Assembly: GCA_947626395.1 (NCBI GenBank)
Contig: CANQRU010000021.1
Coordinates: 1 to 55,719 of the forward strand
Direction of reading: 5' to 3'
Origin: an uncultured Lachnospiraceae bacterium
Lineage (GTDB): Bacteria; Bacillota; Clostridia; Lachnospirales; Lachnospiraceae
Length of the DNA stretch: 55,719 nt
Within the stretch, counting starts at the first letter, position 1, and every line of letters begins with the position of its first letter. This document shows positions 36,296-53,891 of the stretch, piece by piece. The translations under genes and the position numbers were made by a program. The notes under the pieces are model-generated. The model searched no databases and was not told where the DNA came from. It was given only the letters and a program-made list of their open reading frames with translations.

Positions 36296-37168
36296 ATGCA
36301 TATGATCAACCGGAATAGCCCCTGCTGGTGCGGCAGCGGGCTCAAATATAAGAAATGCCACTATGATTTCGACCAGAAGATCGCGTCCATCCAGTACCAG
36401 GGACATCTCGTGCCCGATCACGATATGATCAAGACGCCGCAGCAGATCGCGGCGATCCGTGAGAGCGCGAAGGTGAATATCGCGGTGCTGGACTATGTGG
36501 CGGAGCACATAGGACCCGGTGTTACTACGGCCGAGATCGACGACTGGGTCGCGAAGGAGACCGCCAGATACGGCGCCATTCCCGCTCCTCTGGGTTACGA
36601 GGGATTTCCGAAGAGCGTCTGCACCTCCATCAACGAGGTCGTATGCCACGGCATTCCTTCCCCGGACCGGGTGCTGAAGGACGGCGATATTATTAATGTA
36701 GACTGTTCCACGATCCTCCACGGCTATTTCTCCGACTCGTCGCGGATGTTCCTGATCGGAAATGTGTCCGAAGAGAAGAAGAAGCTGGTGGAAGTCACCC
36801 GGGAGTGCATGTATCTGGGCCTGGAGCAGGTGAAGCCCTGGGGGTTCTTAGGCGACATGGCCCAGGCCGTCAACGACCACGCCAAAGCCAACGGCTACCA
36901 GGTCGTCCGCGACATCGGCGGCCACGGCGTCGGCCTGGAATTTCATGAAGATCCCTGGGTCAGTTACGTCTCGTCGAGAGGCGAGGACATGCTGATGGTT
37001 CCCGGCATGATGTTCACCATCGAACCGATGATCAACATGGGTACCTGGGAGGTCGTCATCGACGACGAAGACGGTTGGACCGTCACCACTGCCGACAACA
37101 AGCCCTCCGCCCAGTGGGAGATCCAGGTTCTCGTAACCGAAGACGGCCACGAGGTGATCGCTTACTGA
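36296..37168 (+). CDS. map: type I methionine aminopeptidase with N-terminal SEC-C zinc motif
   Basis: This 290-residue enzyme removes the initiator Met from new proteins. Residues 7-24 form a SEC-C motif (SPCWCGSGLKYKKCH; Cys10, Cys12, Cys21, His22), which binds zinc and may dock to the ribosome. The catalytic domain has all metal ligands in context: INVDCST (Asp), YFSDSSR (Asp), IGGHGVG (His), FTIEPM (Glu) and QWEIQV (Glu), plus VCHGIP. ATG 36296 is chosen from the ribosome site; the longer frame from 36227 overlaps the promoter. It is a single-gene unit. Confidence 0.93.
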   Translation: MHMINRNSPCWCGSGLKYKKCHYDFDQKIASIQYQGHLVPDHDMIKTPQQIAAIRESAKVNIAVLDYVAEHIGPGVTTAEIDDWVAKETARYGAIPAPLGYEGFPKSVCTSINEVVCHGIPSPDRVLKDGDIINVDCSTILHGYFSDSSRMFLIGNVSEEKKKLVEVTRECMYLGLEQVKPWGFLGDMAQAVNDHAKANGYQVVRDIGGHGVGLEFHEDPWVSYVSSRGEDMLMVPGMMFTIEPMINMGTWEVVIDDEDGWTVTTADNKPSAQWEIQVLVTEDGHEVIAY

Positions 37169-37301
37169 CCGCGGCGAACGGTGCGGCGGAGATACGTAGA
37201 ACAGTGCGGCGGAGATACATAGAGGCAGGCCGCGGCGGTGCATTCGCAGCCTGCTGAGAAAGATCCGTATTTATTTATCAGAATCGTTGCGCAACACGAG
37301 G

Positions 37302-37379
37302 GGCGTCACCGGCGCCCTTCCCGCATGGAAATACAGGCAGGGCGTCACCGGCGCTCTGCTTGCATGGAAATACTGACGG
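37302..37379 (+). repeat. 39-bp palindromic repeat, two tandem units (copy C)
   Basis: Units 37302-37340 and 37341-37379 are near-identical: GGCGTCACCGGCGC, then CATGGAAATAC. In one frame they would read GVTGALPAWKYRQ then GVTGALLAWKY and a stop, similar to the coding copy in the DUF6020 gene. The core GGGCGTC-ACC-GGCGCCC folds as a hairpin. Confidence 0.75.
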
Positions 37380-37409
37380 GGATTGCCGTTTCGGGCAGTC
37401 CTCATTTTC
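37378..37409 (+). terminator. intrinsic terminator between map and the switch
   Basis: GGGGATTGCC (37378-37387) and GGCAGTCCTC (37394-37403) form a 10-bp stem with G-U pairs, followed by ATTTTCT. It would insulate the invertible region from map transcription. Confidence 0.6.
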
Positions 37410-37479
37410 TTTGTTCTGAATCGTTCCCTTCATTTTCCATAACGCATTTAAAGATCAGAAAGACATTCCGCGCCGGCAG

Positions 37480-37610
37480 GCTCCGGATTCGATGCCCTGA
37501 AGCGGGCGTCATAAAGCGGATGTCATCCGGGTTTCGGATCCGGCTTCCCTGAAGCAGGCGTTATTTGTGCTTCAGCTCCGGCGTCCCTGAAGCGGCGTCG
37601 TCCGGATTCA
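37480..37610 (+). repeat. three diverged repeats with CCCTGAAGC core, left of the switch
   Basis: CCCTGAAGC followed by GGGCGTCAT or close variants occurs near 37495, 37546 and 37586, with TCCGG motifs between. I see no gene in 37169-37629; apart from this, the 39-bp repeats and the terminator, nothing else stands out there. Confidence 0.5.
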
Positions 37611-37629
37611 TGGATCTGTATAATGAAAA

Positions 37630-37655
37630 TGTCGTAGAGCATCCCACTCTACGAC
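37630..37655. repeat. left recombination site (inverted repeat L)
   Basis: Arms TGTCGTAGAG (37630-37639) and CTCTACGACA flank a 7-bp asymmetric spacer CATCCCA. This is the build of a tyrosine recombinase core site. 24 bp (37630-37653) recur exactly, in inverted orientation and including the spacer, at 39009-39032. Confidence 0.88.
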
Positions 37656-37690
37656 AATCCCTCAAAGCTGTATTTCCTTTACCGCAATAG

Positions 37691-37719
37691 ATTTTACAAA
37701 ACAATAGGTGATTTGTCAA
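37691..37719 (-). promoter_or_regulatory. invertible outward promoter (currently leftward)
   Basis: On the minus strand TTGACA (37719-37714), a 17-bp spacer and TAAAAT (37696-37691). The start point would be near 37684, about 30 bp inside the left recombination site, so transcripts leave the segment through that site. Confidence 0.85.
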
Positions 37720-37728
37720 TACCGTTTA

Positions 37729-37770
37729 TCTGGAAACATCTTAAGATTTTGTCTGGAAACATCTTAAGAT
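37729..37770. promoter_or_regulatory. two 19-bp direct repeats with palindromic cores upstream of the invertible promoter
   Basis: TCTGGAAACATCTTAAGAT occurs at 37729-37747 and 37752-37770, spaced 23 bp. Each contains ATCTTAAGAT; the second extends to the perfect palindrome AAACATCTTAAGATGTTT. They begin 9 bp behind the -35 box of the leftward promoter and lie in the recombinase leader, so they could bind an activator, a repressor of the recombinase, or the recombinase arm-binding domain. Confidence 0.75.
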
Positions 37771-37851
37771 GTTTTATGTAAAAAAATGTCTGCCGGCAGG
37801 GCAGCGAACACACAGAAACACCATCGATTCAACGAAAAGGGGGAAGTTATA

Positions 37852-38943
37852 ATGTTGGAAAAAGGAAGGAAACTCTATCTGGAAACGGATACGCGGCGGA
37901 TGGAACAGTATGTTGTTGAGCAGGCCGCGGACGGCAGGCTCATTCTTCTGGCATGCGGGCCCGATACGCCGGAGACGCCGCCGCTGACGGCGGCCCGAAG
38001 TACCGCCACGCTGGGGGAACTGGCGGAGAAATGGCTTGAAACAGTCCGGTTCCAGGTTAAGGAATCCACTTATGTAAAATACTGGAACCTGCTGTATTCC
38101 TACATTATTCCGGAACTCGGCGGGCTGGAATGGCGCGCTCTTAACAGGGAGACGATAGAGATTTTCTGCGGCAGGATGCGCTCCGCAGGAGGACAGAGGC
38201 ATAGCGGTCTTTCCGCCAAGACCGTTACGGACATCATGTCTGTGCTGCGGCGGATCTTTTATTATGCCGTTGATCACGGAGAAGTCATGCCATTCAATAT
38301 TTCCTCTATTACCGTGAAGAAAGAGCAGAAAGAGATGAAGGTACTGACCAGAAATGAGCAGGACAGGCTGTATAAGTACCTCCGCGCGAACCGTTCGGAG
38401 CGGAACTTGGGGATCCTGATCTGCATGTTTACCGGGCTGCGGCTCGGCGAGATCTGCGCGCTTAAATGGGAGGACATTTCCTTCTCGGAACAGACGATCT
38501 TTGTGCATCGGACGATGCAGCGGATCCAGACGAAGGATGATCCGGCAAGAAAGACGAAGATCATTATTACATCTCCCAAAAGCGGCAGTTCTGTCCGCAG
38601 GATCCCGATTCCGAAAGAACTGAATAAGATCCTTTTTGCCTGCCGTGGGAACGGAAAAGGCTATATCCTGACGGGCCGGACGGACGCCTATGTGGAACCC
38701 CGGACGATGGAAAGGCATTTCGCAAAGGTTCTTGAGCAGGCAGGAATAGAGAAGGTAAATTTCCACGCGCTCCGCCATACATTCGCGACGCGGTGCGTGG
38801 AGATGGAGTTCGATGTGAAAAGTCTGAGCGAGATCCTGGGACACGCAAATGTCAATATCACGCTGAACCGCTATGTTCATCCGACGATGGAGCTGAAGAG
38901 GAAGAATATGCAGAAACTGTCCGTGCTGATGGCGATCGGATAG
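37852..38943 (+). CDS. tyrosine recombinase (site-specific DNA invertase)
   Basis: This 363-residue phage-integrase-family protein has a small N-terminal domain (residues 1-50), an SAM-like core-binding domain (about 52-150) and a catalytic domain with the full set of active residues: Arg197 in FTGLRLGE, Lys243 in SPKSGSS, His305-x-x-Arg308 in HALRHTF, His331 in ILGHANV and nucleophile Tyr341 in NRYVHPT. GGGGGAAG precedes ATG 37852; the longer frame to 37786 lacks a site. It lies within the inverted-repeat segment, next to capsule regulators, not beside phage genes. The likely role is inversion of its own segment; reported capsule and flagellar switches in gut bacteria use related enzymes. 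Confidence 0.9.
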   Translation: MLEKGRKLYLETDTRRMEQYVVEQAADGRLILLACGPDTPETPPLTAARSTATLGELAEKWLETVRFQVKESTYVKYWNLLYSYIIPELGGLEWRALNRETIEIFCGRMRSAGGQRHSGLSAKTVTDIMSVLRRIFYYAVDHGEVMPFNISSITVKKEQKEMKVLTRNEQDRLYKYLRANRSERNLGILICMFTGLRLGEICALKWEDISFSEQTIFVHRTMQRIQTKDDPARKTKIIITSPKSGSSVRRIPIPKELNKILFACRGNGKGYILTGRTDAYVEPRTMERHFAKVLEQAGIEKVNFHALRHTFATRCVEMEFDVKSLSEILGHANVNITLNRYVHPTMELKRKNMQKLSVLMAIG

Positions 38944-39008
38944 AGACGTCGGGAACGGCCGGACGGCTTTGCATACGCCGGGAGAGGCGGATTCGCCTGC
39001 GGGAAAAC

Positions 39009-39032
39009 CGTAGAGTGGGATGCTCTACGACA
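39009..39032. repeat. right recombination site (inverted repeat R)
   Basis: CGTAGAG-TGGGATG-CTCTACGACA is the exact reverse complement of 37630-37653. The inner arm is shorter (7 bp matching) than the outer (10 bp). Outside both sites ATGAAA is also partly shared. Confidence 0.88.
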
Positions 39033-39060
39033 CGTTTCATCGGCAGCAGCCGGCGCGCCC

Positions 39061-39112
39061 GGGATTACTTTAGTCGGTTATAGAGATAATTATACTTCCG
39101 GAATCCTTTTTT
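39061..39112 (+). terminator. possible leader terminator before loaP
   Basis: GGATT (39062-39066) and AATCC (39102-39106), plus CGG/CCG further in, could form a bulged hairpin followed by six Ts (39107-39112). If real, it would stop transcripts leaving the switch unless antiterminated. The stem is weak. Confidence 0.3.
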
Positions 39113-39157
39113 AGCTGTATAAATACCGTTTCCGATCACAAAACCCGGAGGGGATCC

Positions 39158-39427
39158 GTGAGCCTTGTGGAGACGTTTCCGCTGAAGGGGGTCATAACGG
39201 CCACAGCATATGCCGTCGGTATCAGAGCGCTTTGGGGCAGGTCAGAATCAGACCGGCCGCGACGCGGTGGGAAAGGCGTATCCAATTGGCAGCAGGCATC
39301 CGAGCTGACCGCAGGGTTGGAGCGGAATGGCGAAGCCTGCTCTTACTGCGGGGAGGAGAGATCCCGCGAACTAATGCGGAAAACTGACAGACAGAAAGGG
39401 GCGGCCTCAGCATGCTGTGGTACGTGA
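39158..39427 (+). CDS. doubtful small ORF in the loaP leader
   Basis: This encodes 89 residues from GTG 39158, preceded by CGGAGGGG, and overlaps the start of loaP by 16 bp in another frame. It has two Cys pairs (ACSYCGEERS and a terminal CC) but no recognisable family. It may be a leader peptide or chance; this stretch (39033-39411) otherwise has only the weak hairpin at 39061. Confidence 0.25.
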   Translation: MSLVETFPLKGVITATAYAVGIRALWGRSESDRPRRGGKGVSNWQQASELTAGLERNGEACSYCGEERSRELMRKTDRQKGAASACCGT

Positions 39428-40176
39428 TACAGACTTATACAGGAAAAGAAGAACAGCTGGTACAGATGATCCGCCGGCAGGTGCCGGAAGAATGCTATGG
39501 GGAATGCTTCGTGGCATATTACGAACAGCTCAGGGACAGGAAGCAGGAGAATCAGATCCATATCCTGCGGCTGTTCCCGGGCTATATATTTATTTCCTCG
39601 GACGATGTCGACCGTCTGTTCCAAAGCTTTAAAATGCTCCCGGCCATGACGAAGATCATGTCCAGCGGGGCATTTGCATTCACGCCCCTATATGAAGGCG
39701 AGGCGGAGTTTCTGAAGGAAATGATGGATCCCGACCATGTGGTCCGACTGACCTATGTGTCCACGGACGGCAGGGATCATATCTCCTATCTGTCCGGGCC
39801 GCTTCAGAAATGCAGAGATCAGATCCGGGCGTATCAGTTCCGCAAGCGCTGCGCCCAGGTCAGCCTGCGGATCGCCGGACAGGAGAAGATCGTCCGGATG
39901 GGAATCATTTTAAATGACGACGTCCGCCGGGAGATGGCGTACGGGAAAGTGGAAGCGCGGATCCGCACGCCGGAGAAATACACGGTCTCCGCCCCGGAAA
40001 GCCCGGCCGCCGTGTTAAGCAAGGGCGACAATGTAGCGGTGATCGACGGGGCGTTCGAGGGAAATGTGGCCGTTATCAGCCAGGTAAAAGGAAGCGCGGT
40101 GCGGATCTCCGTGCATATGTTTGACAGGGAAATATCCCTGGAGGTGCCGGCGGAGAGCGTCAGGAAGCTGGCGTAG
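39412..40176 (+). CDS. loaP: LoaP-like specialised NusG paralogue (processive antiterminator)
   Basis: This 254-residue protein has an N-terminal NGN domain (LWYVIQTYTGKEEQLVQMIRRQV; LFPGYIFISS; VVRLTYVSTDG) and a C-terminal KOW domain (about 195-250; LSKGDNVAVIDGAFEGNVAVISQ). LoaP-type NusG paralogues head long polysaccharide or antibiotic operons in Firmicutes and let RNA polymerase read through terminators. It is the first complete gene after the right recombination site, hence the first target of the invertible promoter. AAAGGGG precedes ATG 39412. The housekeeping nusG would sit next to secE/rplK, which are absent here. Confidence 0.85.
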   Translation: MLWYVIQTYTGKEEQLVQMIRRQVPEECYGECFVAYYEQLRDRKQENQIHILRLFPGYIFISSDDVDRLFQSFKMLPAMTKIMSSGAFAFTPLYEGEAEFLKEMMDPDHVVRLTYVSTDGRDHISYLSGPLQKCRDQIRAYQFRKRCAQVSLRIAGQEKIVRMGIILNDDVRREMAYGKVEARIRTPEKYTVSAPESPAAVLSKGDNVAVIDGAFEGNVAVISQVKGSAVRISVHMFDREISLEVPAESVRKLA

Positions 40177-40277
40177 ATCGGCCGGGGGCGGATCACGGGC
40201 TGTAAGTATTTGTGACGGTGCAGCGGAATTTTTCAGCAGCTGCGGAAGAAAAACTGAGTGTGCGGGAGGGATACAGC

Positions 40278-41018
40278 GTGCTCTGGTACAAATTAAAAAC
40301 CTGGTACGGCGGCGAAGAAGCGCTGGTGAAAGAGATCCGGCGCACCGTGCCGCCTTACATGTATGAAGACGTATTTGTCATTTACAACGAGCGGAACTTA
40401 AGACGTCAGCAGCGCAGCGTCATTGAGCAGGAAATCCTCTTTGACGGCTGCGTTTTCCTTACCTGCAAAGAGACGGAGCCGCTGTTTCGGCGCATGGAGA
40501 AGATACCTGCCGTCTCCCGGCTGATCGCGACCGGGTACCTGTCCATGTTTCCGCTGATGGAGAAGGACGCCCGGTTCCTGGAAGCTATTTCCGGAACCGA
40601 TCATATCGTCCGCGCGTCGTATGTGCTCCGTGAATCGGAAGACAGCAGTCTCTACCGGGTCTACGGGCCGCTGGAATATCTGGCGGACAGCATCGAGAAA
40701 ATCCGTTTCTCCAGCCGCTGCGCCAAGACCCGCAGACGTCTGTGGGGCGAGGACACGGTGATCCCGCTGGGGATCCTGGCGAAGGAGGACGCGGCGCAGC
40801 CAGTCCTGTACCATGGCAGGGAAATGATGTTGGAGCCGCCGGGCGTCTCGGATGCCGGCCATTATATGCTGCTGGAGATCGGGAAAGATGCGGAAGGGAA
40901 GAATACCTACCGCTGCCGCGAGAGCGTGACGATCTTGCCGCGAGGGGAAGCGATGTCGGCGGGAGAAACTGTGTTGGCAGGGAAAACTGCGTCTGCGGGA
41001 GAAATTGTGTCGGCGTGA
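40278..41018 (+). CDS. second NusG-like protein, NGN domain only, with truncated repeat tail
   Basis: This 246-residue protein starts at GTG 40278, after GGGAGGG; the start LWYKLKTWYGGEEALVKEIRRTVP aligns with the LoaP start, as do GCVFLTCKETEPLF and DHIVRASYVL. No KOW motif can be seen after residue 165. The C-terminus enters an 18-bp tandem repeat (MSAGET, VLAGKT, ASAGEI) and stops at TGA 41016 because one repeat is 17 bp long. In the frame one base back, the repeat goes on and the frame would end at TGA 41141-41143, overlapping the TTG start of the next gene. The complete protein would have had about 288 residues. Its role may be to antagonise or assist LoaP, like UpxZ/UpxY pairs (inference). 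Confidence 0.75.
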   Translation: MLWYKLKTWYGGEEALVKEIRRTVPPYMYEDVFVIYNERNLRRQQRSVIEQEILFDGCVFLTCKETEPLFRRMEKIPAVSRLIATGYLSMFPLMEKDARFLEAISGTDHIVRASYVLRESEDSSLYRVYGPLEYLADSIEKIRFSSRCAKTRRRLWGEDTVIPLGILAKEDAAQPVLYHGREMMLEPPGVSDAGHYMLLEIGKDAEGKNTYRCRESVTILPRGEAMSAGETVLAGKTASAGEIVSA

Positions 41019-41139: not shown

Positions 41140-42546
41140 TTGACAGATATGAAACATGATCTGGGATTACGGGCCATGAAAGCGCTGAATGTCGCGCTGA
41201 TCACGGCCTCTTTTGCTGTGTGCTGGTATCTGTACTACGCGCCCCGCACGTATTCTCCATTTTTCAATAGAGGAAACTGGGCGATCATCGCGTTGTTCGC
41301 GCTGATTTACATAACATACTGCAAAGTGTATGACGCGCTGATCATCTCAATTAACCGGGCGTCAGAGGTGATCTACAGCCAAGCTTTGGCTGCAATAATC
41401 GCGGACGCTATTTTGTATGTGGTCATTTTCCTTCTGACGAAGCATATCCCGCATCCGGCGCCGCTTTTGCTGACATTCTTGAGTCAGATCGTTCTGGCGG
41501 CGGTATGGACCGGCGCGGCGAGAGCGTGGTATTTTGCGGTCTTTCCACCGAAACGAACGGCGGTGATCTATGACAAGCGGCCCGGTCTGGAGACGGTGGT
41601 AAGCGAGTACGGGCTGCGCAGAAAATTCGATATTCTTGTGACTGTCAGTGTGAAGGAATACCTGGATCGTCCGCAGCTTCTGGACGGGATGGAGGTCGTT
41701 TTCCTGAGCGGTGTGCACAGTCATGAGCGGAATATTATTCTGAAGCGCTGTATCAGGGACGGGATCGAGATCTATGTGATACCGAGGATCGGAGACACGA
41801 TCATGAGCGGGGCGAAGCAGATGCACATGCTGCATCTGCCGATCCTGAATGTGGAATGGCAGAATCCGCCGGCCGAATATCTGATCGTAAAGAGGGCGCT
41901 GGACATCGTGATCGCGGGACTGGCGCTGATCATCACGTCGCCGTTCATGCTGGTCACTGCCATCGCTGTCAAAGCGACAGATGGAGGTCCGGTATTCTAT
42001 AAGCAGAAAAGACTGACAAGGAATGGGCAGGAATTCTACGTGATGAAGTTCCGTTCGATGCGCGTGGACGCGGAGAAGGACGGTATCGCGCGGCTGTCCG
42101 CCGGAGATAACGACGACCGGATCACGCCGGTAGGGCGCATTATCCGCAAATGCAGGATCGATGAACTGCCGCAGCTGTTCAATATACTGAAAGGCGACAT
42201 GACGATCGTGGGACCGCGTCCGGAGCGTCCGGAGATCGCGGAACAGTATATGGAGGAACTGCCGGAATTTGCGCTGCGACTGAAGGGAAAGGCCGGGCTG
42301 ACCGGTTACGCGCAGGTATATGGGAAGTACAACACGGAACCGTATGACAAGCTGCAGATGGACCTGATGTATCTGGCGCATCCGAGCATCGTGGAGGATC
42401 TGAGGATTATGTTTATGACGGTGAAGATATTGTTCATGCCGGAAAGCACGGAAGGGATCGCCGTGGGGCAGACGACGGCGACGAAGGAGCCGGAGGCAGT
42501 TGCAGATAAGGTAAACGCGGGAACCGTGGAGGGGAGCAGGATCTGA
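41140..42546 (+). CDS. initiating polyprenyl glycosylphosphotransferase (WbaP/CpsE type)
   Basis: This 468-residue enzyme loads the first sugar phosphate onto undecaprenyl phosphate to start capsule repeat synthesis. The N-terminal half has about five helices and a nucleotide-binding-like region. The C-terminal catalytic part runs from KRALDIVIAGLALIITSPFML through GGPVFYKQKRLTRNGQEFYVMKFRSMR, ITPVGRIIRKCRIDELPQLFNILKGDM and VGPRPERPE to LTGYAQVYG. TTG 41140 is chosen since AAAGGAGA is 9 bp upstream; ATG 41149 is too far. The start overlaps the ancestral stop of the previous gene, so translation was coupled. Confidence 0.9.
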   Translation: MTDMKHDLGLRAMKALNVALITASFAVCWYLYYAPRTYSPFFNRGNWAIIALFALIYITYCKVYDALIISINRASEVIYSQALAAIIADAILYVVIFLLTKHIPHPAPLLLTFLSQIVLAAVWTGAARAWYFAVFPPKRTAVIYDKRPGLETVVSEYGLRRKFDILVTVSVKEYLDRPQLLDGMEVVFLSGVHSHERNIILKRCIRDGIEIYVIPRIGDTIMSGAKQMHMLHLPILNVEWQNPPAEYLIVKRALDIVIAGLALIITSPFMLVTAIAVKATDGGPVFYKQKRLTRNGQEFYVMKFRSMRVDAEKDGIARLSAGDNDDRITPVGRIIRKCRIDELPQLFNILKGDMTIVGPRPERPEIAEQYMEELPEFALRLKGKAGLTGYAQVYGKYNTEPYDKLQMDLMYLAHPSIVEDLRIMFMTVKILFMPESTEGIAVGQTTATKEPEAVADKVNAGTVEGSRI

Positions 42547-42646: not shown

Positions 42647-43510
42647 ATGAAAAAAACGAATTGTACAAAAGAAACGTACAGTCTGATCGTTTCCAGAGAG
42701 CAGCGACTTCAGGAAGCGCGGCAAATGAATCTTCTGAGCGATGCCTTCATGTCAGTGGTTCTGGAAGACATTCCCGCCTGTCAGCATGTCCTGCGGATAC
42801 TGATGGAGCGGCCGGGGTTGGTGGTAAAGGATGTACGGACCCAGTATAGAGTATCCAGGGTGGTTTCCCACGACGCGGTTCTCGACGTGCTGGCGGAAGA
42901 TGAGAAGGGTCGGCTCTGCAATGTAGAGATACAAAGGCCTAAGACGCTTGATCATGCCAGACGAACCCGATTTTACGCAGCCATGACAGACAGTGAGTTT
43001 CTGACCAAAGGGACTGATTATAGCGGGTTACCGGAGACGTATATTATTTATGTAAGTGAGAAAGATATTTGGCATAAAGGCTTCACAGTCTACCATGTGA
43101 GAAAAATACTGGAAGCTGTCGGTGTTGGACAGAAACGAGAGGAAAGACAGCCAGTCCGCAGAGAGTTTCCTTATGATGACGGGATTCATACGATTTATGT
43201 TAATGCGGCGGTGGACGATGGTTCTGAGATTGCGAAACTGATGCGTTATTTTAAGACAGCAGATCCAGAAGACATGAGTCAGGGTGAACTGTCCCGACGG
43301 GTTCATTTCTTGAAGAAAGAAGAAGGAGGGGAAGAAATCATGTGTGAAATTTCGGAAAAGTGGTGGAAAGAAGGAGAAGAGTCGAAGGCTCACCAGATAT
43401 CGATCAATCTGTTTCGAATGGGGATGCCTGTGGAGAAGATAGCCGAGGTGGTGCAGATAAACGTGGCTATAGTACAGCAGTGGCTCAGCGGGGCGGCAGT
43501 GCAGAAGTAA
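42647..43510 (+). CDS. PD-(D/E)XK nuclease-family (Rpn/transposase-like) protein
   Basis: This 287-residue protein matches the widespread clostridial family annotated as PD-(D/E)XK nuclease family transposase or Rpn: MNLLSDAFMSVVLEDIPACQHVLRILMERPG, VRTQYRVSRV, then the active-site strand DVLAEDEKGRLCNVEIQR (Asp, then E-x-Q), HARRTRFYAAMTD, and an alpha-helical tail ending in a resolvase-like helix-turn-helix (GMPVEKIAEVVQINVAIVQQWL). GAAGGGAGG precedes ATG 42647. It has its own promoter and terminator. It lies at the border between conserved and AT-rich variable capsule genes, suggesting past recombination there. Confidence 0.85.
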   Translation: MKKTNCTKETYSLIVSREQRLQEARQMNLLSDAFMSVVLEDIPACQHVLRILMERPGLVVKDVRTQYRVSRVVSHDAVLDVLAEDEKGRLCNVEIQRPKTLDHARRTRFYAAMTDSEFLTKGTDYSGLPETYIIYVSEKDIWHKGFTVYHVRKILEAVGVGQKREERQPVRREFPYDDGIHTIYVNAAVDDGSEIAKLMRYFKTADPEDMSQGELSRRVHFLKKEEGGEEIMCEISEKWWKEGEESKAHQISINLFRMGMPVEKIAEVVQINVAIVQQWLSGAAVQK

Positions 43511-44070: not shown

Positions 44071-44955
44071 GTGGACATGAAAAATGGGAATGGTGTATAC
44101 GGTGTCAAAAGGAGAATGAATAGTCAACAGTTACCGGATTATTCTGTCCTGATGTCGGTGTATGCCAAAGAACGACCGGAATATTTGAAAGAGGCTATTC
44201 AAAGTATATTAGATCAGACAATAATAACAAATGATTTTGTGATTGTCTGTGATGGACCGTTAACATCTGAATTGTATAATGTATTGGAAATATATTCTGT
44301 TATGGATCCAGATAGATTTCAAATATTGCGGTTAGAAAATAATCAGGGTTTGGGTAATGCTCTGAATGTAGGGATGAAGTTTTGCAAAAACGAGTTGGTG
44401 GCAAGAATGGACAGCGATGATATCTCTCTTCCCTATCGATGTGAACGCCAGCTCGAAAAATTTAAAAGCAATCCCGAGCTGAGTTTATGCAGCGGGGATA
44501 TCGCTGAGTTTGAAACTGATTCAGCCCGGCCCCAGTGTGTCCGTCATGTTCCGGAAAAACATGAGGAAATAGTGAAATATGCGAAGAGACGTAATCCGAT
44601 GAATCATATGGCAGTGATGTATAAAAAAACAGCAGTAGAAGATATCGGTGGATATATAGAAATAGAACGAAATGAAGATTATTATTTATGGGTTCGTATG
44701 TTACAAAAAGGGTATGTTTCTGCAAATATAAATGAAATACTGGTGAAGGCAAGGGTTGGCAATGGTATGTATGAGCGGCGAGGAGGATGGAAGTATTTAC
44801 GATCTATTGTTAAATTGCAAAAAGAATTCTTAAGAATGAATTTTATATCATGTCCTGAATTTGTCAGAAATTGCTTTTTAAGAATCATTGGAAGTCTGTT
44901 GCCATTATCTCTGAGAAAGTATTTATATCATAGGCGGTTACGAAGTTCCATATAG
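44071..44955 (+). CDS. family 2 glycosyltransferase
   Basis: This 294-residue GT-A enzyme adds a sugar to the lipid-linked capsule repeat at the inner membrane. Motifs are YSVLMSVYAKERPEYLKEAIQSILDQT, FVIVCDGPL, NNQGLGNALNVG, LVARMDSDDISLP (the DxD-type metal site) and NPMNHMAVMYKK with a later DYYLWVRML. GTG 44071 is preferred (AGGAAG upstream); ATG 44077 is possible. It is the first intact gene of the AT-rich block and has many rare A/T-ending codons compared with 37-42 kb. The sugar donor is unknown. Confidence 0.87.
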   Translation: MDMKNGNGVYGVKRRMNSQQLPDYSVLMSVYAKERPEYLKEAIQSILDQTIITNDFVIVCDGPLTSELYNVLEIYSVMDPDRFQILRLENNQGLGNALNVGMKFCKNELVARMDSDDISLPYRCERQLEKFKSNPELSLCSGDIAEFETDSARPQCVRHVPEKHEEIVKYAKRRNPMNHMAVMYKKTAVEDIGGYIEIERNEDYYLWVRMLQKGYVSANINEILVKARVGNGMYERRGGWKYLRSIVKLQKEFLRMNFISCPEFVRNCFLRIIGSLLPLSLRKYLYHRRLRSSI

Positions 44956-44992
44956 TTGTTTCAAAAAATGGAAGAAGTGGGTATTACATAAT

Positions 44993-46201
44993 ATGAGGAT
45001 AAATCTTATTAAACGGATTCGTATTATTTTTTGGATGTTGGCATTGTTTTCGTATTATTTTCAGTGTCCATTTACGTTTCTTTCAAAACTTATTATACCA
45101 TCGGTATTTGCATTTATATTGTTAGAGAGTTTTAATTTTCGCATTAGGCAATATAATTTTAAAGGGATCGTTTACTTTTACATATTCTTTTTAAGTACTT
45201 CGATGATTTTGTCTATACTAAAGGGGACAGATATTTCCAGAGTACTCCGTTTTTATATGATTCTTCTTGCTATACCGATTTGTTTTACTATCCGTGATAA
45301 TGATTTTATTGAAGAAGAAAAGATTTTTATTATCATGGCGATGATGAAAAGTCTTATGCTGGTGGGAGTAGCAGTAGTTTTACTTTGTACCAAAAACTAT
45401 GTTCCATTTCGTAATTGGGCAAAAACATATGGGCATGGAGATATTTATATACTTCAGGGAGTTCCCAAAGTACAAGTAAAAGGGAATGCTCTTTTGATTG
45501 TTGCTTTTATGTTAGATTATATGAAAAGAAAGAAAATAACATGGATGAATATTATCTTGTTATTAGGAATATTAGCGGCAGGAAATTTTGCTTTTATACT
45601 TGGAATAGCAGCATTTGTTTTATATCGAATGGGTACAGTATTGTTTTCGGCAAAGGGACGAAATAACTGCAAAAAGGCGGTTCTCATTTTTGGGAGTGTC
45701 TGTGGTTTAATACTTATGCTTCCATATATAAATAATCAACGGATTTTGAAAAGTGCACAGTCAAATAGGGTACGTATTGAACAAGCGAAGATTTTTTTGG
45801 ATACTAATCTGTTATTGGGAGAAGGGTTAGGAAATGTGGTGGTTTCTGATAATGAATATATAGGGGCACGCAGCGGTGGAATTTATTTTGAATTGCAGAC
45901 GTTATATATTTTTAATCAGATTGGTTTGCTGGGAATAATACCCTTTTACATTATTACTCTTTGGGCTGCTTATAAAAATGGAAAAGAGAAATTATGGATA
46001 TATTTATTGTATTTGTTCTATTCATTCTGGAATCCGTATTGTTTTGATACTACACAGATGTTGGCTATAATTGCAATATTAAACTTTAAGGAGAAGCATG
46101 GGAAGAGTAAACGCCATAGCAACAGTTTATTATCCGTCCCCCGATGTGCCTGGGCGAATGAGCAGAATTGCAGCGCAGGCAGACAGGTTATTTATATGTG
46201 A
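44993..46201 (+). CDS. Wzy-like O-antigen/capsule polymerase
   Basis: This 402-residue protein has about ten membrane helices. It has little sequence conservation beyond the hydrophobic profile, a large outside loop with WAKTYGHGDIYILQGVPKVQVKGNALL, and a second segment with LLGEGLGNVVVSDNEYIGARSGGIYFELQTLYIFNQIGLLG, which matches Wzy polymerases (RSGG..E..). It would join repeat units outside the membrane. The last 35 residues overlap the next gene by 104 bp and look unlike a polymerase end, so a small deletion may have removed the original stop. Confidence 0.72.
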   Translation: MRINLIKRIRIIFWMLALFSYYFQCPFTFLSKLIIPSVFAFILLESFNFRIRQYNFKGIVYFYIFFLSTSMILSILKGTDISRVLRFYMILLAIPICFTIRDNDFIEEEKIFIIMAMMKSLMLVGVAVVLLCTKNYVPFRNWAKTYGHGDIYILQGVPKVQVKGNALLIVAFMLDYMKRKKITWMNIILLLGILAAGNFAFILGIAAFVLYRMGTVLFSAKGRNNCKKAVLIFGSVCGLILMLPYINNQRILKSAQSNRVRIEQAKIFLDTNLLLGEGLGNVVVSDNEYIGARSGGIYFELQTLYIFNQIGLLGIIPFYIITLWAAYKNGKEKLWIYLLYLFYSFWNPYCFDTTQMLAIIAILNFKEKHGKSKRHSNSLLSVPRCAWANEQNCSAGRQVIYM

Positions 46202-46961
46202 TAATAGTGATACTAGTAATAAGGATATGTTTCAGAATATCCAAAATGCTGTCTATTTGTTCTGGGGAGAAAATAAAGGTATATCAGGCGCTTTTAATAA
46301 GGTATTAAAAGATTCATCCTTTGGTTGGAAAAATGACGATTTTATTATATTTTTTGACCAGGATTCCGATATACCGGATATGCATATCGCCCGATTAATA
46401 AATGAATATAGAAATTTATTAAGTATGGGGCAGCAAGTAGGGTGCCTTGGTCCTGTTTATTATAACCGAAGCAATGACATAACGGAAATTGCACATATGA
46501 GGAGACGTGTAAAAGATCATGATTATCGCGTGAACAGTATCATAACATCTTCGATGCTTTGTCGGTATTGTGACATAAAAAAGATAGATTTTTGGAATGA
46601 AGAGATATTCCTGGATTGGTCAGATTTTGATTTGTGCTGGCGGCTGCGTAAAATTGGGAAGTATTGTTATGTAACGGACAAAGCGGTACTCAATCATATG
46701 GTTGGTTTCGGAGAAAAGAAATTTGGTATTGTGAGATTACGGGTATGGCCCCCTGTAAGAGACTATTATCAAACTAGAGATTGTTTGAAACTGCTGACTA
46801 AAGGGTATGTTCCGTTGAAATTTAAAATTCGCACGTGCATTTCTTTGACGTTTGGAGCAGTTGCTAAAGTGATATTGCTTGATGGTCCAAAAGAACGTTT
46901 GGAATATATGAAAAAGGGTATTTGTGATTATTGCCGAAGATTAAATGGCAGAATATCATAG
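46098..46961 (+). CDS. rhamnosyltransferase-like family 2 glycosyltransferase
   Basis: This 287-residue enzyme carries VNAIATVYYPSPD, FICDNSDTS, NKGISGAFNKVL, IIFFDQDSDIPD (metal site), a cysteine-bearing middle and EEIFLDWSDFDLCWRLRKIGKYCYVTDKAVLNHMVG, all typical of the rhamnosyltransferase subgroup of GT2. TTAAGGAGAAGC precedes ATG 46098, so this start is firm despite its lying inside the preceding frame. The donor is probably a dTDP-deoxysugar, but the rml genes are not in the window. Confidence 0.85.
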   Translation: MGRVNAIATVYYPSPDVPGRMSRIAAQADRLFICDNSDTSNKDMFQNIQNAVYLFWGENKGISGAFNKVLKDSSFGWKNDDFIIFFDQDSDIPDMHIARLINEYRNLLSMGQQVGCLGPVYYNRSNDITEIAHMRRRVKDHDYRVNSIITSSMLCRYCDIKKIDFWNEEIFLDWSDFDLCWRLRKIGKYCYVTDKAVLNHMVGFGEKKFGIVRLRVWPPVRDYYQTRDCLKLLTKGYVPLKFKIRTCISLTFGAVAKVILLDGPKERLEYMKKGICDYCRRLNGRIS

Positions 46962-46976
46962 ACATTTGTTGAAAAT

Positions 46977-48938
46977 ATGAGAGGTAAAAGCAGCTTGGAT
47001 AAGGAACAGATGCTTGAGAAGTACAAAGTTATTTCTTTTGATCTTTATGATACGTTGATTAATAGAGATATAAGCAGCCCCAAAACACTCTTTTTAGTCT
47101 GCGAACGAGAATTTGTAAAACGGTACATGCAACAGGGAATTCCGGATTATGCTGCATTACGTGCGCAATGTGAGCAGACACTACGTAATCGATATAGCAG
47201 AGAGATTACTTATGACCAGATTTTTGAGGAAATGGTACAATATTCGGATCTTGAGACAGTTAATAAGTATAAGGAGATTGAAATCGCCGCAGAAATTGAT
47301 TTTTCGACAATCAACGAAATTGGAAAAGAGTTATATGAGCAGTGTATAAAACTGAAAAAAAGGATTATCATAACCACTGATATGTATCTCCCAAGGAGCA
47401 TAATTGAAACAATACTCAAAAAGAATGGATATTTGAATTATGATTCCCTTTATCTTTCATCAGAGATAGGATTAACGAAAGCGCAAGGAAGTATTTATAG
47501 ATATATTTTGAAAAAAGAGGGTATCAAGCCGGGGAAATTGCTGCATATAGGTGATAATCTGAAAAGTGATATAATAAACGCGCGTAAAGAAGGAATACAT
47601 AGTTATTATATAAGAAGACAAAACAGGAATAAAAAGAAAACGGAAGCAGGTGATTCAAAGGATGATGTGTTGGCTTCTGCTATAATTTCTGCTTTTTTTA
47701 ATAATAGAAGGAATATTTTCAGCAATAACAAATTTGCAGAGACAGGATACTGCTGTCTCGGGCCGCTGATTTATGGTTTCCTTGAATGGCTTGACAGCAA
47801 ATGTGTGGAAAATAAGATAGAATGTATTCTTTTCTTTTCCCGGGACGGATATTTAATGAAAAGAATATATGAGAAAATGGAGAGAAAGAGTACCGCAAGG
47901 TTCTCTTATTTTTTTGCGTCGAGGCGTGCGCTACAGGTAGCTGCAATCTGGACTGCGCCTTCTTATGATGCTGTTATTAATTCCATGCATTTGCCGAGAC
48001 GTGTAAAAGTAGGATGGCTTTTTAATAGCTGGGGCCTGGATATATCTTTATATCAGGAACAACTTGAGACATTGAATTTAACAGAAGAAAGTGAAGTCAG
48101 CAGAGAGGATCTTCCAGGGAATGATAAACTAAAAGCCTTATTTGATTTGTTAAAACAAGATATTATTTTGAATTCCAGAAATGAATGTCAAGCATTTCTG
48201 GATTATTTGAGAGAGGAAAATTGTCATGGGAGAACAGCTATAGTAGATATAGGCTGGTATGGCAATATGCAAAGTGCTTTCGAGAAAATAATTAACTATT
48301 CCGGCTTAGATATATCATTGCAGGGATATTACCTAGGAATAGTTCCGGATTCTGTTAATCAGCTCGAATATGATATGTATGGTTATCTTTTTCAAAAAGG
48401 GAAAAATGAGTGGTTGTTTTTGAAGGAACGATATATTAATTGTATGCTGGAATTGTTTTTAATAGCTCCGCACGGTTCCCTGAAAAGATACTATATAGAT
48501 GCAAAGGGAGATGTCGCTACAGAACAGGAGATATTTGAATATCAGGATTCACCGATATATAAAGATATAAGAGTCTTGCAAGATGCTGCTGAATTATTTG
48601 TTTTGGATTTTAGAAAAATGATGTCATATATAGAGAATAATGAACTTATGTATTCACAGAATATGATAAATAAGTTCTTATACCCAAGCCTTAAGACAGT
48701 CCGGGAATGGAAGGATCTTAAGATGTGGGATGGAGAATGGGTTAATTTAATAGAGTATAAAAATGGACTGCATCGGTTAGCATATCTGATGCATCCACAT
48801 CAGTTTATCAATGATTTTTTGCAATCATCTTGGAAGATCGGTTTCTTTAAAGGAATGTTTGGCTTGCGATTGCCATATGCGGAAATATTGATTTTGCTTA
48901 GAAAAAGGTTTTTATTGTGTATAAGAAATGAAAAGTAA
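46977..48938 (+). CDS. COG5610-type HAD protein of capsule loci
   Basis: This 653-residue protein begins with a full HAD hydrolase domain: VISFDLYDTLINR (nucleophile Asp), IITTDMYLP, LTKAQGSIYRYIL and HIGDNLKSDI. The C-terminal half has a second module starting FFSRDGYLMKRIYEKM, then AIVDIGWYGNMQ, which recurs in polysaccharide-cluster proteins classed as COG5610. The exact reaction is not known to me; a phosphatase plus a transferase-like half is possible. ATG 46977 has no clear ribosome site; TTG 46995 after GAGAGG is an alternative start. It sits between glycosyltransferase genes. Confidence 0.75.
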   Translation: MRGKSSLDKEQMLEKYKVISFDLYDTLINRDISSPKTLFLVCEREFVKRYMQQGIPDYAALRAQCEQTLRNRYSREITYDQIFEEMVQYSDLETVNKYKEIEIAAEIDFSTINEIGKELYEQCIKLKKRIIITTDMYLPRSIIETILKKNGYLNYDSLYLSSEIGLTKAQGSIYRYILKKEGIKPGKLLHIGDNLKSDIINARKEGIHSYYIRRQNRNKKKTEAGDSKDDVLASAIISAFFNNRRNIFSNNKFAETGYCCLGPLIYGFLEWLDSKCVENKIECILFFSRDGYLMKRIYEKMERKSTARFSYFFASRRALQVAAIWTAPSYDAVINSMHLPRRVKVGWLFNSWGLDISLYQEQLETLNLTEESEVSREDLPGNDKLKALFDLLKQDIILNSRNECQAFLDYLREENCHGRTAIVDIGWYGNMQSAFEKIINYSGLDISLQGYYLGIVPDSVNQLEYDMYGYLFQKGKNEWLFLKERYINCMLELFLIAPHGSLKRYYIDAKGDVATEQEIFEYQDSPIYKDIRVLQDAAELFVLDFRKMMSYIENNELMYSQNMINKFLYPSLKTVREWKDLKMWDGEWVNLIEYKNGLHRLAYLMHPHQFINDFLQSSWKIGFFKGMFGLRLPYAEILILLRKRFLLCIRNEK

Positions 48939-48940
48939 AT

Positions 48941-50773
48941 ATGAAGGGATATGTGAGAAATGAATCAATGGTTGAAACGAAAAGAAAATATGCTAAAGAT
49001 TATGATGGTTGTATGTGGGGGGTATTTTTGATTTTAAATATCCTGACTCCATATATGGCAGATGATTATAGCCTTATGTTAGCAGAAAATATAATGGATG
49101 TATTTGCTCGGGGATATTCGCATTATTTTACAACAAACGGAAGAGTTCCTGCTCACTTGTTTGCTATGTTGTTTTTGCTATATGATAAGTGGATATTTAA
49201 CATTGCGAATACTTTAATATATTTGTTTTTTACAGCGTTGATACTATATCATGCGACCAAAGGGCTTAAACTGTCTATACAGCAAAAAATAATATGCTAT
49301 TTATTAATACACCTATTGTTGTTTTTATATGTTCCGAATTGGGGGCAGGTTTTTCTGTGGTTAGATGGGGCATGTAATTATCTTTGGACTGGAACAATTA
49401 TGCTTATGTATTTGGGGCCAGTTCGCATGCTGTGTGAGGGAGAACATCCAGATTATAAAAGTTTTTTTCCATTTGGAATGTTTATAACCGGGGTAATTGC
49501 TGGTTGGTGTAATGAAAATACTTCTGGTGGAGTAATCCTTTTGTCCTGTTTTTTAATTATTTATTTAAAAAAGAAAAAAGATATTATACCAATCTGGATG
49601 TATTCCGGATTAGCTGGAACTATTATAGGTTTTGCTGTAATGATTTTAGCTCCGGGGAATGCAGTCAGAAGACGAATTGTTGGGACTGATCAAAGAGCGT
49701 GGTACAATCAACTGATTACACAGATTCGTTCATTAACAAATTGCTATTATAATAGTTTTCGTTATATGATTTATTTTTTGGTGGTAACTGTTGTATTTAT
49801 GATTGTATTGCATGTTGGGAAGAAAAAACTGGCAGTTGTCTTTGGTTTCATTATAACATCATTAGCTGTGTGCTATGCACTAGCTTTAACGCCGGTAACA
49901 GGAGGAAGAACTTTTTTTGGGTGTTCAATGTTCTTGACAATTGCACTAATCTATTCTGTTGCAACGGTGCTAGAAGGAAGACAAGATACACAATTATTAA
50001 TCTATAGTTATTTTGGTATACTATTGGTGGCTTTTGCGGTTAATTTCTGTAATGGTTTTATAGATATTGCATACTATAAAGTCCATGCGGATCGAAGAGA
50101 AAAATATGTAATAGAACAAAAGAATTCTGGCTTGACTAATTTGATAGTTAATGAATTGGCTCCTAAGCCAGAAACTAAATACAACGCAGCGTATGGATTA
50201 ACAGATCTGGTAAATGATCCAAAAAATTGGCCTTCCAATGTGTATGCGCTCCATCATGGAGTAAAAACGGTAACTGCTGTGTCGAATGATATATTTGAAA
50301 GAGTATTTCGTAACGGAGATACACAATTGACAAATTGTCGGGATATTTACGAGTATTTAGCTTTAATTGATAATCCTAAATATACAGTTATGATTGCTGT
50401 GAATGATGATTCTAGTGGAGCTGTGGATGAGCAAATAGTCGACTTAATGAGTAATCTCGGTCTACAAACAGATTTGCGTGAACATTTTCGGTGGAGTTAT
50501 ATTGCGGTAATAAGCCAAGGAGAGGTTATAAATGAACAGTATGCAAATCAGGTATTGAATTATAGTCAGAGCAGTCTCTTGGGACATTCAATAGAAATAG
50601 GCAGTAGTGGAAAAATAAATAATACAGGCAATTTTGCAAGCATAAAAATCGACGGGTATGATTATGCGAGAAATAGTATTGGTCTAAATATTGTGGTATT
50701 TGATAATTCACTGAGCCGGGTAGTAGACAGAGTAGCATTTAATACTTGGTCGGGGCTGGAGGCTGGCAGATAA
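48941..50773 (+). CDS. DUF6056-like membrane protein with C-terminal ILEI/FAM3-like domain
   Basis: This 610-residue protein has about ten helices in residues 25-400, with the DUF6056-like pattern DDYSLMLAEN near the first outside loop and CNYLWTGTIML and WCNENTSGGV later. Such proteins resemble GT-C glycosyltransferases. The tail (about residues 555-607; GNFASIKIDGYDYARNSIGLNIVVFDNSLSRVVDRVAFNTW) closely follows the ILEI/FAM3 (PANDER-like) fold signature best known from animal secreted proteins and glycan-related enzymes. It may recognise or modify the growing polysaccharide outside the membrane. It starts 2 bp after the HAD gene; the ribosome site is weak. Confidence 0.7.
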   Translation: MKGYVRNESMVETKRKYAKDYDGCMWGVFLILNILTPYMADDYSLMLAENIMDVFARGYSHYFTTNGRVPAHLFAMLFLLYDKWIFNIANTLIYLFFTALILYHATKGLKLSIQQKIICYLLIHLLLFLYVPNWGQVFLWLDGACNYLWTGTIMLMYLGPVRMLCEGEHPDYKSFFPFGMFITGVIAGWCNENTSGGVILLSCFLIIYLKKKKDIIPIWMYSGLAGTIIGFAVMILAPGNAVRRRIVGTDQRAWYNQLITQIRSLTNCYYNSFRYMIYFLVVTVVFMIVLHVGKKKLAVVFGFIITSLAVCYALALTPVTGGRTFFGCSMFLTIALIYSVATVLEGRQDTQLLIYSYFGILLVAFAVNFCNGFIDIAYYKVHADRREKYVIEQKNSGLTNLIVNELAPKPETKYNAAYGLTDLVNDPKNWPSNVYALHHGVKTVTAVSNDIFERVFRNGDTQLTNCRDIYEYLALIDNPKYTVMIAVNDDSSGAVDEQIVDLMSNLGLQTDLREHFRWSYIAVISQGEVINEQYANQVLNYSQSSLLGHSIEIGSSGKINNTGNFASIKIDGYDYARNSIGLNIVVFDNSLSRVVDRVAFNTWSGLEAGR

Positions 50774-50800
50774 TGTCAAGGACAAGAAAAGAGGATTGTT

Positions 50801-51784
50801 TTGAAAATACTTTTTATTGGAATACCATTTTATGAATATACCGTACGAATAAGAAAGGCGGTAAAAGAATACGAAAACGCAGAAGTTAATCAGTTGAGAC
50901 TACGAATTAGTACTACATCTTTTGAGGCGCTACTAGATAAAATATCTGGGGGCGGCTTAAAAAGATTAATCCCGTGGGTACAACAATGTATGTATTTTAC
51001 CATTCATAAAAGCGAGAAATATGATGTAATTTTTGTATTGACAGGAAGAGGTTTGAATGCTTCTTTATTCAAAAAGTTTATATCTAAGCAAAAGCAGGCT
51101 CAAAAGATATTATACCTATGGGATGATATCAAGCGTTTAGAGAACTATGAAGAAATAAAAAGGCTTTTTGATCGAGTAATTTCTTTTGATCGGAAAGACT
51201 GCGAAGAAGAGTCTTTGGAGTTTTTACCTCTATTTTATTTGGAGGACTATGTATATCATGACGAAGCAAAGATAAGAGAATGTTCTGTCTTAGGCGGATG
51301 GCATTCGGATCGAGTTCGCATAATTAACCAAGTATGCAAGCAATTTGATACTAGATCAAAGAAATGGTATTTGCTGCTGTCAACTACAAGAGCGCATTGG
51401 TTGAGAAAGCGATGGTTTTCACGGGATAATGAAAAAGTTCCTTCGTATGTCCGTCCTATAACATTATCGATTAAAGACAGTGCAGATATATTAAAGGGAA
51501 GTAAAGTTACGATTGATATGCCCTATCCGGGACAGCAAGGATTAAGCATCCGAACTCTGGAGGCTTTGGCAGCGAATACTAAATTAATAACAACAAATGC
51601 AGATGTTATGAATTATGATTTTTATAACGAAAAAAATATTTGTGTTATTGATAGGGTGAATCCGAGGGTAGATAATCAATTTATGGAAGAACCATATCAG
51701 AAGATTGACAATAGTATTGTTGAACAATATTCGATTGAATCTTGGGTGAAGAGGATATTTGAGCCGGTAAAGCAGCATGTGTGA
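50801..51784 (+). CDS. glycosyltransferase, GT-B-like (CgeB-like)
   Basis: This 327-residue protein has the pattern of GT4/CgeB-like capsule enzymes: ILFIGIPFYEYTVRIRKAV at the start, KILYLWDDIKRLENYEEI, FDRVISFDRKD, FLPLFYLEDYVY, and the C-terminal GQQGLSIRTLEALAANTKLITTN, where family members bind the nucleotide-sugar. TTG 50801 follows AAGAGGA. No membrane segment is present; it would work at the cytoplasmic face. The donor is unknown. Confidence 0.8.
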   Translation: MKILFIGIPFYEYTVRIRKAVKEYENAEVNQLRLRISTTSFEALLDKISGGGLKRLIPWVQQCMYFTIHKSEKYDVIFVLTGRGLNASLFKKFISKQKQAQKILYLWDDIKRLENYEEIKRLFDRVISFDRKDCEEESLEFLPLFYLEDYVYHDEAKIRECSVLGGWHSDRVRIINQVCKQFDTRSKKWYLLLSTTRAHWLRKRWFSRDNEKVPSYVRPITLSIKDSADILKGSKVTIDMPYPGQQGLSIRTLEALAANTKLITTNADVMNYDFYNEKNICVIDRVNPRVDNQFMEEPYQKIDNSIVEQYSIESWVKRIFEPVKQHV

Positions 51785-51795
51785 GGAGGATGGGA

Positions 51796-53026: not shown

Positions 53027-53040
53027 AATGAGGAAATGGA

Positions 53041-53871: not shown

Positions 53872-53891
53872 ATAAGAAATAGGAGATAAAA

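Follow-up and report, generated by a model that had tools for sequence, protein, structure and literature searches.

In Bacteroides, invertible promoters stand before the gene for UpxY, a NusG-paralogue antiterminator, and polysaccharide genes follow (PMC8748976, PMC11892184). In the hCom2 study, inverton group 139 of Clostridia was linked to tyrosine invertase group 35 (PMC11892184). RecV, a tyrosine recombinase of Clostridioides difficile, is described as a trans-acting enzyme that serves several sites and inverts small segments, among them the cwpV and flagellar switches, and recombinase genes are described as lying occasionally inside the inverting segment, as in the Hin flagellar switch of Salmonella (PMC5903667). 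In Eggerthella lenta, inversions are reported to change where capsule clusters lie with respect to loaP and a LuxR-like regulator (PMC13174815). Bacillus LoaP is reported to relieve intrinsic termination and to require a leader hairpin, the UNCG hairpin in the leader being a LoaP feature (PMC12691694). Phase variation was reviewed in 2025 (PMC11868660).

Here, we analysed a stretch of 55,719 nucleotides (the window), which is contig C21 of the 3.46-Mb draft genome of an uncultured Lachnospiraceae bacterium. An invertible segment of approximately 1.4 kb, consisting of a recombinase gene and one predicted outward promoter, lies in front of LoaP-like and surface-polysaccharide genes. We consider it highly probable that this segment is an autonomous invertible-promoter (phase-variation) cassette, inverted by the recombinase that it encodes.

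The arrangement of an invertible promoter, a NusG-like antiterminator and surface polysaccharide genes is that of the Bacteroides UpxY capsule operons (PMC8748976, PMC11892184). The window differs from them in its phylum, in the location of the recombinase inside the inverting segment and in the replacement of UpxY by LoaP-like proteins; in addition, the site together with a T-tract resembles a terminator in the OFF state here. The two designs would presumably represent convergence. The window shares with group 139 its clostridial host and a tyrosine recombinase, and one member of that group has 26-bp repeats approximately 205 bp apart, as in the short elements described below; however, the invertase there is described as nearby, and the likeness is drawn from the description, not from the repeat motif (PMC11892184). 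RecV likewise inverts small segments, whereas each full cassette here has its own recombinase and spacer in place of one enzyme serving several sites (PMC5903667). The location of the recombinase gene within the invertible segment is shared with Hin (PMC5903667). The inversions of E. lenta are megabase-scale (plus one of 32.5 kb) and use 16-bp repeats, with no recombinase gene found at the breakpoints (PMC13174815). Our literature search found no description of the present cassette; subscription journals and supplements were mostly outside its scope, so an earlier description is possible. The matches listed in a literature search by site letters were all unrelated. Invertible promoters are thus already known; what the sequences compared here support well as new is a switch that appears to encode its own recombinase, occurs in several copies with a spacer particular to each locus, and has a site that possibly also serves as a terminator.

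Recombination sites and recombinase of the window cassette

The left recombination site (37630-37656, forward strand) reads TGTCGTAGAG-CATCCCA-CTCTACGACA, with its spacer at 37640-37646, and the right site (39006-39032, reverse strand) reads AACCGTAGAG-TGGGATG-CTCTACGACA, with its spacer at 39016-39022. Both are 27-bp near-palindromes whose arms flank these spacers. The initial annotation had reported two 24-bp inverted sites with a 7-bp spacer, and this description held: 37630-37653 and 39009-39032 form a perfect 24-nt inverted match, and the 19-nt core, with up to 3 mismatches allowed, occurred exactly twice in the window, both times mismatch-free and in opposite orientations, with no match in 100 dinucleotide shuffles of the window (0/100). 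The sites of tyrosine recombinases consist of inverted arms around a spacer of 6-8 bp; in the window, inverted arms and an identical spacer were found in both sites. To the left of the cassette lies an M24-peptidase gene, convergent with the outward promoter.

A tyrosine recombinase gene lies between the sites (37852-38943, forward strand; 363 aa). Its completeness, claimed in the initial annotation, was confirmed by a match to PF00589 (Phage_integrase) at 2.4e-28. The longest ORF begins at 37786 and would encode 385 aa, but the ATG at 37852, which stands behind GGGGGAAG and at which the MLEK start is conserved, is the likely start codon. Residues R219, K265, H327, R330, H353 and Y363 (385-aa numbering) were invariant across 10 aligned sequences, and we take them to be the R-K-H-R-H-Y catalytic set of tyrosine recombinases. 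Hin is a serine recombinase, and a serine (Hin-type) recombinase domain was absent here, Pfam at E 0.001 matching only Phage_integrase and its SAM-like domain. Unlike Hin, the present system thus involves a tyrosine recombinase, multiple copies and locus-specific spacers. Among phage and plasmid sequences at E 1e-30 (8 and 12 records, respectively), all relatives were less than 60% identical.

Predicted outward promoter of the cassette

The predicted outward promoter, TTGACA-N17-TAAAAT (37691-37719, reverse strand), matches the sigma-70 consensus at 11/12 positions, with the start of transcription estimated near 37684. It sits 34 nt inside the left site and reads out through that site, in agreement with the earlier claim of a promoter pointing outward and away from the capsule genes; inverted repeats around a promoter predicted by consensus match, the mark of an inverton, are therefore present in the window cassette. 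Between the promoter and the recombinase gene, two direct repeats of 23 nt with ATCTTAAGAT palindromes were found (37725-37774), which also occur in the cassette on contig C4 of the same genome. Single promoter or terminator matches are weak evidence, because the counts observed in a scan of positions 36500-40500 were near expectation (3 promoter-like sites versus 2.5 expected, and 7 terminator-like sites versus 3.8 expected). An outward promoter of at least 11/12 was, however, kept at the same end, the recombinase-5' end, in 27 of the 28 genus cassettes, and in most of them its distance from the site is 28-36 nt. At the opposite cassette end, the promoter score never exceeded 9/12 in either the genus or the distant cassettes. 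As for a forward promoter of the recombinase itself, the best matches reached only 7-10/12 and were unconvincing.

Inversion of the cassette was predicted to bring the promoter to 38943-38971, with RNA starting near 38978 and a 5' leader of 434 nt. This computed position agrees with the expectation that a flip would place the promoter at approximately 39,000, reading right into loaP.

Cassette family in the genome and genus of the window

The genome of the window contains four cassettes between inverted sites, each with a different spacer, on contigs C21 (the window), C4, C9 and C15. The recombinase on C4 is 88% identical to that of the window, and those on C9 and C15 are 79% identical each (best segment). 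In the genus, the recombinase is encoded by 13 of 26 genomes, including that of the window, at E 1e-60 or better. An inverted site pair surrounded the recombinase at 30 of the 38 genus loci examined; at four of the eight loci lacking a pair (L090, L109, L111 and L115), a single clear site is present and the contig end truncates the locus. We carried 28 of the 30 cassettes forward, dropping L117 (pair at a contig edge) and L120 (19/23), and used 26 of these 28 pairs for site statistics, leaving out L116 and L118.

The cassette site motif was written as TTTCGTAGAGT-N5-ACTCTACGAAA. The 19-nt pattern gave 7 forward matches in the window's genome versus 0 for the backward-read control, and 33 versus 17 in the 26 genus genomes; with 3 mismatches, the control exceeded the true pattern (27 versus 15 forward). 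Single loose matches are meaningless, and a match was therefore counted only if it was one of a pair, stood next to a recombinase or lay at an orthologous locus. When up to 2 mismatches were allowed, the 27-nt site pattern was found in 11 of 397 family genomes (two of the window's genus), against 1 for the control.

The 5-bp spacer core was identical within all 26 genus pairs, and it matched between loci in 6 of 325 comparisons. Identity between loci averaged 93% for the arms and 41% for the spacers. Since pairs were chosen by overall match, the identity within pairs is partly selected, and the telling point is the position of the partner-site mismatches, which fell in outer columns only and never in columns 8-21. 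Such a pattern is consistent with an enzyme that recognises the arms and requires agreement between the two spacers. The spacer was shared in all five orthologous pairs compared and was kept in two loci without a cassette, and it differed among the loci of one genome. Sharing of a spacer within a genome was found in 0 of 58 pairs (43 loci of 14 genomes, single exact sites at contig ends included), for which permutation expects 0.83 (P 0.41); with this P value, the privacy of spacers is treated as a hypothesis.

Six short inverted pairs, 345-547 bp apart (L121, L122, L124, L125, L127 and L128), have the same sites and the promoter without a recombinase, and their genomes (G011, G015, G019 and G020) encode the recombinase elsewhere. 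Such pairs are what would be expected if flipping were carried out mainly by another recombinase acting in trans, a master invertase, in a version of the self-inverting cassette described above; the four similar recombinases of the window's genome, of which the other three are 79-88% identical to that of the window, also share one arm sequence. However, all 28 genus cassettes contain the recombinase (a selected set, since the search started with the recombinase), none of the six supposed catalytic residues varies among the 10 aligned sequences, and we regard a mainly trans-acting invertase as rather unlikely. By eye, CCGTCA/GCCGTCAG motifs recur in the interiors of the short elements and may be accessory binding sites.

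Orientation and inversion at orthologous loci

Three pairs of orthologous loci (L057/L088, L103/L104 and L097/L099) were found to hold an inverted cassette between collinear flanks, indicating that inversion of the cassette happens in nature. Both inversion junctions fall at the sites in L057/L088 and L103/L104, while in L097/L099 one junction falls at the site and the other is less sharply resolved. The recombinases of each inverted pair are sisters in the tree, with weak support for L097/L099 (85/66). Because the inverted orthologues belong to different species, flipping is seen across species and not within a strain. The opposite orientation that the initial annotation proposed to look for in related genomes was thus found for the family, in which both orientations occur at orthologous loci of different species, but not for the window's own locus, of which no inverted copy occurred among the related-genome loci compared; we infer the ON state of the window locus from its orthologues and paralogues.

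As first suggested, the window appears to have been captured in the OFF orientation, the predicted promoter pointing away from the target and toward a terminator-like T-tract. On contig C4 of the same genome, a paralogous locus whose leader and LoaP pair are homologous to those of the window has the ON orientation. In terms of assembly consensus, which underlies all orientations given here, the promoter faces the target in 4 of the 25 cassettes with an identified target and does not in 21, including the window; one of the six short elements is ON. Since the cassette contains its own likely flipping enzyme as well as a promoter, and related cassettes occur in both directions, it very probably switches the surface-sugar genes on and off.

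Single intact sites from which the cassette is absent were detected at L060:7816-7842 (G000:C3, the window's own genome) and L130:6003-6029 (G021:C54). The orthologous loci L091 (of L060) and L105 (of L130) hold the whole cassette; in the empty loci, the flanks join and one site is left. These loci may reflect deletion between direct repeats provided by the palindromic arms, erroneous excision or a state that preceded the cassette. They would also suit a small integrative element, with the recombinase as its integrase and the sites as attachment ends or as terminal repeats of a mobile cassette. The same applies to the membership of the recombinase in the Phage_integrase family and to a 13-kb region with a related cassette that is found in identical form in the records of three genera (L140, L142 and L143). 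Although the scans of genus and distant loci sought inverted pairs only, an orientation-blind pattern search for close site pairs (up to 2 kb apart on one contig) gave 10/10 inverted pairs and none direct. Moreover, the spacer belongs to the locus, being shared by the five orthologous pairs and kept in the empty loci, the placement of the promoter and the T-rich flank is conserved, and in the three orthologous pairs the inverted cassette occupies the same position. Against these observations, an integrative element appears very improbable indeed, and we prefer the phase-variation cassette.

T-tract and terminator-like hairpin at the left site

A fixed T-tract adjoins the left site (37620-37629, reverse strand; TTTTCATTAT when read leftward). 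Together, this T-tract and the site hairpin make up a terminator-like structure that faces the outward promoter in the present orientation (37656-37630, 12 pairs); the left site was scored as terminator-like and the right site was not. The predicted RNA fold for the window has an energy of -20.9 kcal/mol (z -4.0), compared with -12.3 kcal/mol (z -3.1) for L057 and a weaker -10.5 kcal/mol (z -2.3) for L104. The same hairpin is kept in the predicted ON transcript (-25.6 kcal/mol versus -21.2 kcal/mol for OFF), and any difference in termination between OFF and ON therefore rests on the T-tract alone (7 versus 4 T in 10). The hairpin and T-tract look like a terminator in the OFF state. OFF could nevertheless be leaky through recombinase read-through into loaP, because the recombinase gene is co-directional with loaP in the present orientation and the right site has no T-tract.

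Target genes were sought at 28 cassettes, 6 short elements and 2 single sites of the genus (36 loci in all) and were identified at 33 of these from protein similarity, without reference to the T content of the flanks. The flank away from the target was richer in T at 33/33 loci, the ten bases beyond the site having 5-8 T on the far side and 0-5 on the target side; as the loci are related, these are not 33 independent events. In most of these genus loci, the T run touches the site or begins no more than 2 bases away. Among the 28 genus cassettes, 24 have at least 6/10 T on exactly one side.

Target operon

The leader of the target operon (39033-39411, forward strand; 379 nt) is outside the inverting segment and holds a conserved element at 39126-39219, for which no Rfam match was found up to E 1. 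As compensatory change was found in only 1 of 15 predicted pairs, we claim this block as a conserved element and not as a conserved RNA structure.

Upstream of this block and outside the cassette, the leader also contains a conserved ATTATACTT, which could be part of a second promoter. A cassette that mainly controls the expression of its own recombinase, as a self-limiting switch, with a fixed leader promoter driving the polysaccharide operon, would account for this block, and in the ON orientation the recombinase gene does run into the T-tract. However, no good -35 was seen by eye at the right distance from ATTATACTT, the outward promoter departs little from the consensus, and the target keeps a constant side with respect to the T-rich flank at 33/33 loci, making such a self-limiting arrangement very unlikely. 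Under the preferred reading, the outward promoter would serve the operon itself.

The leader is followed by a gene for LoaP-like antiterminator 1 (39412-40176, forward strand), with an NGN domain and a KOW-like C-terminal domain, the NusG match lying above and the KOW match below the Pfam cut-off. Its best model is the NCBIfam LoaP model NF033641 (118.2 bits; cut-off 125). LoaP-like protein 2 (40278-41018, forward strand) is NGN-like, with no KOW recognised by sequence; its best model is also the NCBIfam LoaP model (61.8 bits; cut-off 125), and its predicted structure (mean pLDDT 72) gave 8f5g, a NusG-RNA complex, as the best PDB match (E 5.4e-8; TM 0.65 on target). Both ORFs were present in 20 of the 23 loci from which a LoaP1 ORF was extracted (26 loci tried). 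By analogy, LoaP may act on the window operon as it does in Bacillus. The KOW-less LoaP2 stands behind LoaP1 in the window and 19 related loci and is possibly its partner or antagonist.

An initiating sugar transferase gene comes next (41140-42546, forward strand; PF02397, with EPS_sugtrans above the cut-off). An Rpn-family PDDEXK nuclease/transposase-like gene lies amid the polysaccharide genes at 42647-43510. The further downstream genes (44071-54800, forward strand) encode GT2, rhamnosyltransferase-like and GT11 proteins, an HAD hydrolase, DUF6056, two hexapeptide-repeat transferases and an epimerase; family scans gave no match for the ORFs at 44993-46201 and 50801-51784. We assume that the genes at 44071-54800 are co-transcribed, and the product may be a capsule rather than another surface polysaccharide.

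Across the genus, the targets are either tandem LoaP-like genes before surface-polysaccharide genes or a 186-aa gene before adhesin or sugar genes. The conserved 186-aa gene directly follows the cassette in L058:10419-10979, L059:5781-6338 and L060:7213-7770 and precedes the genes of giant surface proteins, one of which has an FctA isopeptide domain and SpaA domains; in L103/L104, the gene that comes after it is sugar-transferase-like. The 186-aa protein had no match in Pfam, and its model, with a mean pLDDT of only 65.7, matched no PDB fold at E 0.001 or below.

Distant relatives

From the best 80 of 576 relatives, 65 distant loci were examined; left out were L132-L138 and L211 (which belong to the genus of the window), L141-L144 (almost identical to L140), and L171, L185 and L186. 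Of these 65 loci, drawn from the best 80 of 576, 45 have an inverted pair flanking the recombinase gene, with sites mostly of the form TTTCGYAGAGT-N5-ACTCTRCGAAA or near it. A cassette of this family also occurs in a cultured relative, Dorea sp. 5-2 (L147). We took 36 of the 45, hand-picked by site quality, into the promoter, T, LoaP and spacer counts; at L190 and L195, the script misplaced the site centre, and their spacer and T counts are unreliable. Among these 36 cassettes, again from the best 80 of 576 relatives, an outward promoter of at least 10/12 was present in 30, a one-sided T-tract in only 8 and a LoaP-like ORF in 2, one of them weak. Neither the T-tract as a general terminator nor LoaP as a universal partner is borne out by these counts. 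The comparison therefore indicates that a self-inverting promoter is a property of a broad recombinase clade, and that the T-tract and the coupling to LoaP are mainly features of the window's genus.

In records assigned to Butyricicoccus, Agathobaculum and Negativibacillus (L140, L142 and L143), an identical 13-kb region carries a related self-inverting cassette; it is either a mobile element or shared contamination. The promoter there points away from a gene that presumably encodes a macrolide-resistance methylase. In Lachnospiraceae NK4A144 (L180), a related cassette lies 430 bp from a gene that we take to encode flagellin, and flagellin may be phase-variable there.

Discussion

Comparison among loci shows paired sites, a conserved promoter, inversion at orthologous loci and a T-rich flank opposite the target. 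In the mechanism that we propose, the encoded tyrosine recombinase would act on its sites by binding both inverted copies and exchanging strands within the locus-specific spacer, turning the segment of approximately 1.4 kb that carries its own gene and the outward promoter. In the OFF state, the promoter would fire leftward into the site hairpin and the fixed T-tract, which should end the transcript and could keep OFF tight; the next gene is convergent. In the ON state, the promoter would read through the right site, which has no T-tract, into the 434-nt leader, loaP1, loaP2 and the surface-polysaccharide genes, LoaP would help the polymerase to cross the long operon, and a capsule phenotype would be expected.

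We also put forward, tentatively and with its chances close to evenly balanced, a dual role of the site. The site would serve for crossover as DNA and as a terminator hairpin as RNA, with the U-tract fixed on one flank, so that each inversion would swap both promoter direction and termination and OFF would be actively terminated. Locus-specific spacers would keep the switches independent, and the arms and recombinases would be interchangeable; within this dual-role proposal, the short recombinase-less switches could therefore be run in trans. If true, a crossover site doubling as a terminator hairpin would be a compact regulatory trick.

The site grammar of conserved arms, a locus-specific spacer and a T-rich side allows orientation to be read from genomes and metagenomes of the genus, and the ON and OFF states of surface genes can therefore be counted. 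Phase-variable capsules are best known in Bacteroides. A parallel design, consisting of an invertible promoter, a NusG-like antiterminator pair and surface polysaccharide, with the likely switch enzyme within the switch, is now indicated in Lachnospiraceae, a major gut family.
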